Assembly (NCBI GenBank): GCA_018971195.1
Contig: JAGXBK010000013.1
Span: 1 to 37,968 of the forward strand
Source: Betaproteobacteria bacterium
GTDB taxonomy: Bacteria; Pseudomonadota; Gammaproteobacteria; Burkholderiales; Casimicrobiaceae
Length of the DNA stretch: 37,968 nt
Reading direction: 5' to 3'
The notes beneath the pieces were generated by a model. It had not been told where the DNA came from. It saw nothing but the letters and a program-made list of their open reading frames with translations, and did not search any database. This document shows, piece after piece, positions 36,423 to 37,968 of the stretch. The position numbers and the translations under genes were made by a program. Positions within the stretch are counted from its first letter, which is position 1. Each line of letters opens with the position of its first letter.

Positions 36423-37739
<1,317 letters not shown>

Positions 37740-37752
37740 AGTCTGGACAGCG

Positions 37753-37868
37753 AAACCCGGGACGGACCACGTTTTCCGAAGGGGAAACCCGGGACGGACC
37801 ACGTTTCCCACGGAAAACGTGGGCCGACCCGGGTTTCCCCTTCGGAAAACGTGGTCCGTCCCGGGTTT
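37753..37868. repeat. 116-bp near-perfect palindrome built of four repeated modules
   Basis: Bases 37753-37793 and 37828-37868 are perfect 41-base inverted repeats. The 34 bases between continue the pairing with few mismatches (CGGACCACGTTT against AAACGTGGGCCG), leaving only a tiny loop. The whole is made from a module of about 25 bases containing CCCGGGACGGACCACGTTTT: direct copies start at 37753 and 37786, and inverted copies end near 37836 and at 37868. Arms are joined by CGAAGGGG/CCCCTTCG. It lies directly after aceA and could act as a terminator or mRNA-stabilising structure. The design recalls REP/BIME-type elements; no transposase is present in the window. Confidence 0.95.
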
Positions 37869-37887
37869 GAGCCCTACACTTTGGCCG

Positions 37888-37968
37888 ATGACCGCGGCCC
37901 GTGGCGAGCAGTCCGCACTCCGGGTGTTCTACGCCTTCGTGCTGCCGCCGCAGTTGCGGCCGGAGATC
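37888..37968 (+). CDS. Partial gene running off the window, possibly 2'-5' RNA ligase/cyclic phosphodiesterase-like
   Basis: Only 27 codons are visible: ATG at 37888, then a short polar leader and LRVFYAFVLPPQLRPEI. The R-[VL]-F-[YF]-A-[FL] strand followed by L-P-P is like the first strand of LigT/ThpR-type RNA 2',3'-cyclic phosphodiesterases. Too little is present to decide, and no good ribosome site is seen before the ATG. Confidence 0.3.
   Translation, partial: MTAARGEQSALRVFYAFVLPPQLRPEI

Follow-up and report, generated by a model that had tools for sequence, protein, structure and literature searches.

Repeats linked to RAYT-type transposases are widespread in bacteria, and their spread and persistence are unsettled. 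Elements of the IS200/IS605 group move as single-stranded hairpins, and the BIMEs of enterobacteria are mosaic intergenic arrays of inverted units. In REPINs, two REPs separated by a spacer form paired inverted units within one hairpin, which is taken as the mobile unit and is linked to a RAYT (Bertels and Rainey, 2011; PMC3116915). In the TIRYT/TIR families, a RAYT-like transposase lies between long terminal inverted repeats that are not GTAG REPs; as described, these families are moderately abundant, many of their repeats occur in dimers or clusters, and some TIRs carry the motif GGGGWSAS (Di Nocera, 2013; PMC3733652). According to the same account, CGTC REPs lack a dedicated transposase. 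TIRYTs have been placed in the HuH phylogeny, with 6 of 26 falling outside subclass 2.1, and those of subclass 2.1 are described with a C-terminal helix-turn-helix (PMC6006769). Template switching between inverted repeats is reported to have two results, namely that the arms become homogenised and the spacer inverted (PMC8604942).

Here we describe a palindrome at positions 37753-37868 of a 37,968-nt stretch of DNA (the window), which is the entire contig C30 of a 3.17 Mb draft genome (G000) and ends 100 bases past the palindrome. With a probability of roughly 0.8, we read it as a MITE-like element, non-autonomous and belonging to a RAYT-type transposase family (Y1, IS200/IS605-like), whose arms template switching would then have kept identical.

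Results

A nested palindrome behind aceA

The palindrome was confirmed as real and far beyond chance. Its arms are complementary without error for 41 bases, the first break being base 42, and self-complementarity extends to 108 of the 116 positions, the remaining eight making up four mismatched pairs in the inner part (37794-37827). Folded as single-stranded DNA, it reached -73.5 kcal/mol versus -28.45 +/- 2.98 for 200 dinucleotide shuffles (z = -15.1), none of which folded as well. An earlier note, made from the sequence alone, had described perfect 41-base arms, a near-complementary interior and a 116-base hairpin, all of which these figures bear out, as they do its four modules of about 25 bases in the order forward, forward, reverse, reverse (FFRR). 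The module is a 23-nt unit, AAACCCGGGACGGACCACGTTTT. Two forward copies on the plus strand, F1 (37753-37775) and F2 (37785-37807), are separated by a linker (37776-37784) and followed by a 6-nt apical loop (37808-37813); two reverse copies on the minus strand, R2 (37814-37836) and R1 (37846-37868), enclose a right linker (37837-37845). The two 9-nt linkers mirror each other, and R2 carries two internal mismatches. Searched with up to 3 mismatches, a 20-mer of the module gave four matches in the window (shuffle mean 0.00). Rfam returned six matches to long-hairpin miRNA and Y RNA models, every one under the gathering score, and a PDB sequence search gave nothing at E<=0.01.

The last 170 bases of the window recur at the start of another contig, C271, with 96% identity. 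That copy carries the apical loop inverted, and its inner right arm is free of the two internal mismatches, so the interior of the window copy may be polymorphic or imperfectly assembled.

Upstream lies aceA (36423-37739, plus strand), the isocitrate lyase gene named in the earlier note (Pfam ICL, 361.5 bits), and the palindrome begins 14 nt past its stop codon. Downstream, a gene for a LigT-like phosphoesterase starts on the plus strand at an inferred start codon (37888-37968) and continues on contig C271 (Pfam LigT_PEase, 62.6 bits on locus L216). An element occupies the same site behind aceA in two relatives, G016, a close member of the same genus, and G005, so that three species share the site; the module is missing from the loci of 19 of the 21 relatives. 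In the earlier note, perfect arms had been taken to imply recent formation, ongoing gene conversion or selection. Recent formation does not suit the window copy: because its site is also occupied in G016 and G005, the site looks old and only the arm sequence looks fresh. By eye, a hairpin with T after it stands behind aceA in many of the 19 element-free relatives, and in G016 the element is joined by a terminator-like hairpin; in the window only the element is present, and it may thus be the sole strong hairpin behind aceA there. At one module-free locus (L206, in G001), the gap behind aceA holds GGGGTCAGACCCC-type repeats.

No intrinsic terminator (stem plus T-run) was found in 37600-37968 (0 matches; shuffle mean 0.5), and promoter and terminator scans around the palindrome gave nothing. 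This result, together with the dispersal described below, agrees with the earlier view that the palindrome is not a simple terminator. On the aceA transcript the element would form a hairpin of up to 57 pairs. Most likely this hairpin would act as a 3'-end barrier or stabiliser, a role that is likelier than that of a canonical terminator because no U-run terminator was found.

The module belongs to a dispersed family

Across G000, the 20-mer with up to 3 mismatches gave 48 forward and 44 reverse matches, 92 in all, and its reversed control gave none. The module is not confined to this genome either, as G016 holds 47 forward and 51 reverse matches with at most 1 mismatch. The dispersed repeat family suspected in the earlier note is therefore borne out, and the search that it had proposed returned what a mobile family should show, namely many copies, forward-then-reverse pairing and a RAYT gene bracketed by the module. 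The interpretation as a dispersed family with a RAYT is supported.

Matches grouped in the fetched stretches gave 43 elements in G000 and 42 in G016, an element being kept only with at least one match of at most 1 mismatch, which dropped L044 and one cluster of L025. The 43 include double counts (the window and L050, L015 and L047, L046 and L049, and the two sides of the RAYT gene on contig C9), and some are halves of one site split across contigs; the 42 leave out four places in G016 (C74, two on C220, and C351:10885). We therefore speak of about 40 elements in G000 and a similar number in G016. A 17-mer with at most 1 mismatch occurred in 5 of 41 genomes, namely G000, G016, G005 (8 matches), G011 (3) and G018 (1), and the exact module, with one base left free, in 3 of the 22 genomes of the genus (G000, G016 and G005).

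Forward units precede reverse units in all 62 elements that have both orientations; the sole case flagged for order, L038, involved an extra 3-mismatch match belonging to another repeat. At L038:8227-8311, a GGGGTCAGGCCCC-type palindrome sits within the loop of the module element and is followed by more repeats of that type. The unit consensus, drawn from 105 and 96 units, reads AAA-N-C-(A/C)-GGGACG(C/G)ACCACGTTTT, with G also occurring before GGG. This consensus lacks GTAG and so does not match a GTAG-tagged REP or REPIN, in which that tetranucleotide stands at the foot of a short hairpin. In the flanks of L012, L021, L029 and L049, short satellite units like AAAACCGGGACG recur next to the modules, much as if a portion of the unit amplified by itself. 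The loops of L027, L030, L037 and L225 share, by eye, a CGTAGTGCGCAAGCGCTTCAACG-like sequence with GTAG beside a small hairpin.

Elements lie mainly behind genes. Of 128 neighbouring gene ends, 94 are 3' and 34 are 5'; the median distance to the element is 11 nt for the former and 55.5 nt for the latter. The 50 elements with both neighbours called, a set that leaves out seven placed by the gene caller inside ORFs, stood between convergent genes in 26 cases, between co-directional genes in 24 and between divergent genes in none. The corresponding counts for 81 element-free gaps, drawn as background from the same loci, were 4, 51 and 26 (Fisher, p = 6e-10 for convergent and p = 7e-7 for divergent). 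Genes were called automatically with a simple codon-usage caller.

The module brackets a RAYT-type gene

G000 has two Y1 genes, one on contig C9 and one on contig C219. The C9 gene is bracketed by the module in the arrangement FF - gene - RR and matches Pfam Y1_Tnp at 54.4 bits (cut-off 23). For the NCBIfam model REP_Tyr_transpos (NF047646), the two genes scored 71.1 (C9) and 75.9 bits, under the cut-off of 80; as both nevertheless exceed the Pfam Y1_Tnp cut-off, we call them RAYT-type. The C219 gene (L217:2930-3890) is bracketed by a terminal repeat other than the module, present as paired AAAATGGGGTCAGAGCTGTA-like copies, two per side. A C-terminal helix-turn-helix was not found in the RAYT, where Pfam at E<=10 gave Y1_Tnp and one unrelated model (E=0.14). 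A CGTC-tagged REP, with an 8-9 bp stem and the CGTC tag, was also considered for the module, but the RAYT bracketing speaks against it; CGTC does occur inside the reverse strand of the unit.

The ends of RAYT relatives were surveyed at 77 named loci, of which 64 were scored and 13 left out for too short a flank. Among the 29 relatives with at least 50% identity, 23 had a GGGACAGACCACGTTTT-type core on one proper side or more, 12 of them on both. Of the 35 below 50% identity, two had this core on one side or more and one had it on both, and in 18 both sides ended in the GGGGTCAG type. Flanks that had been shuffled scored at 0 of the 64 loci, and a module in the wrong orientation lay beside the RAYT at 2 of 64. 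Each of the 13 loci where both sides had the GGGACAGACCACGTTTT-type core bears a gammaproteobacterial title, mostly Pseudomonas. Two or more copies per side were seen at 4 (GGGACAGACCACGTTTT type) and 14 (GGGGTCAG type) of the 64 loci, one locus counting in both, and doublet ends are not general among RAYT relatives. Within the genus of 22 genomes, the only close orthologue of the C9 gene that was found lies in G016, one of the three genomes with the exact module; it is partial, being cut at a contig start (85% identity over residues 213-279), and its surroundings match those in G000 (96% over 1152 nt).

Because the end sequence tracks RAYT relatedness across named loci, the module can be tied, as a probable terminal inverted repeat, to the RAYT clade that includes the C9 gene. 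The FFRR ends of the gene-less palindrome match those around this gene, as in a MITE, and the window copy reads as the two ends of such an element with no gene between them. A tblastn search for a RAYT relic in the gap of L041 found none.

The elements would have been moved by the RAYT. Three sites occupied in one genome were inspected in the other, and none yielded a resolved pair of empty and occupied sites. For L038, one flank piece was matched in G016, at a contig end. For L229, G000 has two contig ends without the module (L272 on C72 and L273 on C172), the junction falling at the contig break. For L250, G000 also has a contig break (near the end of L270 and at the end of L271; contigs C177 and C150), and a palindrome of the other RAYT's repeat type stands there.

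Arms often change in step and loops often appear inverted between relatives

By their flanks, 31 of the 43 G000 elements pair with 27 of the 42 G016 elements, 15 of the 31 pairs matching on both flanks; the 31 include one mis-pair made through the RAYT gene (the second L031 with L209) and three sites that occur twice. Flank identity of the pairs is about 87-97%, mostly 90-96%. G000 and G016 thus share many sites, at which single elements can be watched while changing.

Within elements, the two arms tend to match. Eighteen of 26 two-armed elements in G000 and 28 of 36 in G016 have the same sequence in both of their innermost 23-nt arms, against a between-element baseline of about 8% and 9%, respectively. 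Among interior elements, those 300 nt or more from a contig end, the counts are 13 of 17 and 25 of 32 (baselines 13.6% and 9.5%; 0 of 10,000 shuffles in each genome). All 49 interior elements have arms that concur at the variable C/G base (17/17 in G000, 32/32 in G016).

Between species, the arms often differ while matching within one species. Eighteen of the 31 pairs could be scored, 13 being unscorable, and these gave 16 coordinated and 17 uncoordinated changes at arm sites, with at least one coordinated change in 12 of the 18. Without elements near contig ends, 10 pairs remained, with 10 coordinated and 7 uncoordinated sites and at least one coordinated change in 8 pairs. If arms mutated independently, we reason that the same two-sided change should be rare relative to one-sided ones.

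Loops of at least 25 nt in both genomes were available for seven pairs, of which five aligned better inverted and two directly; ten pairs with a loop under 14 nt were left out, and one pair (36 versus 14 nt) was undecided. L027 and L043 among the inverted pairs, and L047 among the direct ones, lie near G000 contig ends. Four pairs are off contig ends and matched on both flanks: three of these aligned better inverted (L011/L247, L024/L251 and, weakly, L029/L232, p = 0.024) and one directly (L014/L238). The evidence for inversion is weaker where loops are partly palindromic, as in L011/L247 and in the G000 loop of L024, and L024/L251 also beats shuffles in the direct orientation (9.5 versus 27.5). 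The clearest inversion is that of L043/L223 (34 versus 3), but the G000 contig ends 25 nt away.

In G005, all eight matches with at most 1 mismatch read GGGACGGACCCCG, every copy found having ACCCCG in place of ACCACG. The flanks of six of the seven G005 loci match sites occupied in G000 or G016, L210 by one flank only. Arms are identical only at the aceA locus, imperfect at two loci and reduced to a single unit at four, and despite the eight module copies a RAYT search in G005 gave no match. This pattern could mean that inherited elements were rewritten or that elements inserted independently at the same preferred sites; since most copies are unpaired or imperfect, the case for steady rewriting is weakened.

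A profile search for SbcD in the G000 draft gave 20.1 bits at best against a cut-off of 77.65, which 8 of 14 control genomes passed. The apparent absence of SbcD, as judged from this one draft search, would fit a tolerance of long palindromes.

Discussion

The evidence points to a RAYT-type family whose ends also occur as gene-less palindromes. The 23-nt module would be the terminal inverted repeat recognised by the transposase, and the FFRR layout seen in the window would derive from the doublet left end and doublet right end of a RAYT element whose gene is missing. The RAYT would have spread these elements, which now lie mostly just behind stop codons. After insertion, polymerase template switching between the arms would keep them identical and flip the loop; judging from the pattern, it is the likeliest cause of matched arms and inverted loops. 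Tentatively, and at well short of even odds, the family may amount to a record of template switching, with inherited sites at which both arms are rewritten at once and loops flip, the G005 copies showing a shifted version. If so, long palindromes would evolve through rewriting of both arms in concert, not through point mutations gathered independently, and the apparent lack of SbcD may help here.

That the palindrome is an ordinary local terminator or 3' stabiliser of aceA, born of a local duplication, is highly improbable. Its closeness to the aceA stop codon agrees with such a role, and the element may have taken over from the hairpin and T that many element-free relatives have there and the window does not. 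Yet the scan of the region found no terminator-like match, G016 keeps its terminator-like hairpin beside the element, and a local origin is at odds with the numbers of elements in G000 and G016. Slightly less remote, though still quite improbable, is a classical GTAG- or CGTC-tagged REP/BIME family, for which dispersed intergenic copies, paired inverted units at gene 3' ends and RAYT genes in the genome could be cited. The consensus has no GTAG, however, the unit matches the terminal repeats of a RAYT clade, and the family brackets a transposase, which CGTC REPs are reported to be without (PMC3733652).

The remaining alternatives concern the arms and loops. G000 and G016 are fragmented drafts, which weakens individual cases, including the interior of the window palindrome, and perfect arms and inverted loops could be mainly products of short-read assembly of palindromes. 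For 18 of the 43 G000 elements a contig end is no more than 200 nt away, in L012, L020, L021, L027, L032 and L043 the sequence is palindromic right up to that end, and the C30/C271 overlap itself carries inverted loops. But interior elements taken alone agree at the C/G base throughout, only 4 of 42 G016 elements are near a contig end, and of the four loop pairs that lie off contig ends with both flanks matched, three favour the inverted alignment, one of these weakly. Imperfect arms were assembled too (4/17 and 7/32), which argues against a blanket assembly collapse, and we regard assembly as an unlikely main cause. The six contig ends that are palindromic to the last base are probably assembly products or very long palindromes, and at those of L021 and L027 the flanking sequence is mirrored as well. 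More serious, if doubtful on balance, is the proposal that arms match because new palindromes repeatedly insert into the apex of existing ones, and not through template switching. The outer and inner pairs of FFRR elements are each matched and often unlike each other, the L038 loop encloses a palindrome of a different kind, a palindrome of the type found around the other RAYT stands in G000 at the L250 site, and three sites are FFRR in G000 and FR in G016 (L019/L242, L024/L251 and L037/L253). Nesting nevertheless leaves unexplained the recognisably homologous loops in inverted orientation and the single coordinated base changes, as in L011/L247 and L028/L227. Template switching within RAYT-spread elements accommodates both, and the family makes such correction of palindromes directly testable in a bacterium, with one repeat end tied to one RAYT clade.

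A search of the open-licence literature for the module (six spellings), or for arm rewriting in a RAYT repeat family, found no paper. The template-switch homogenisation described in PMC8604942 and PMC8794818 has the same two signatures as our elements and, in the portions of those papers considered, is reported for genes of yeast and for RNA genes, a bacterial repeat family not being among the cases described. REPINs likewise combine paired inverted units in one RAYT-linked hairpin taken as a mobile unit, as presented in the part of PMC3116915 considered, but they belong to another sequence class and consist of two spacer-separated REPs, whereas ours are long, near-perfect palindromes. Inverted-unit arrays are also what BIMEs are made of; here, however, forward always precedes reverse, the units are nested, and the module forms no reverse-before-forward pair. 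The REP/BIME-like label of the earlier note stands for dispersal, pairing and the RAYT link but falls short on sequence, there being no GTAG, and the TIRYT kind fits better.

The closest known kind of family is that of the TIRYT/TIR families, an assignment that is supported over GTAG-tagged REPs or BIMEs. As in the families outlined in PMC3733652, a Y1 gene is bracketed here by inverted copies of a long repeat that is dispersed in the same genome at moderate abundance, often in dimers or clusters. The GGGGWSAS motif given there for some TIRs occurs in the ends of many of the RAYT relatives surveyed here; the G000 unit, (A/C/G)GGGACG(C/G)A, comes near to it yet departs from it. Pfam showed in the C9 RAYT no C-terminal helix-turn-helix like that of the subclass 2.1 TIRYTs as characterised in PMC6006769, and we do not claim subclass 2.1 for it. 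Unlike the TIR families as that account of PMC3733652 presents them, our family has doublet units on each side of the gene, and its arm rewriting and loop inversion have no counterpart in the parts of the description consulted.
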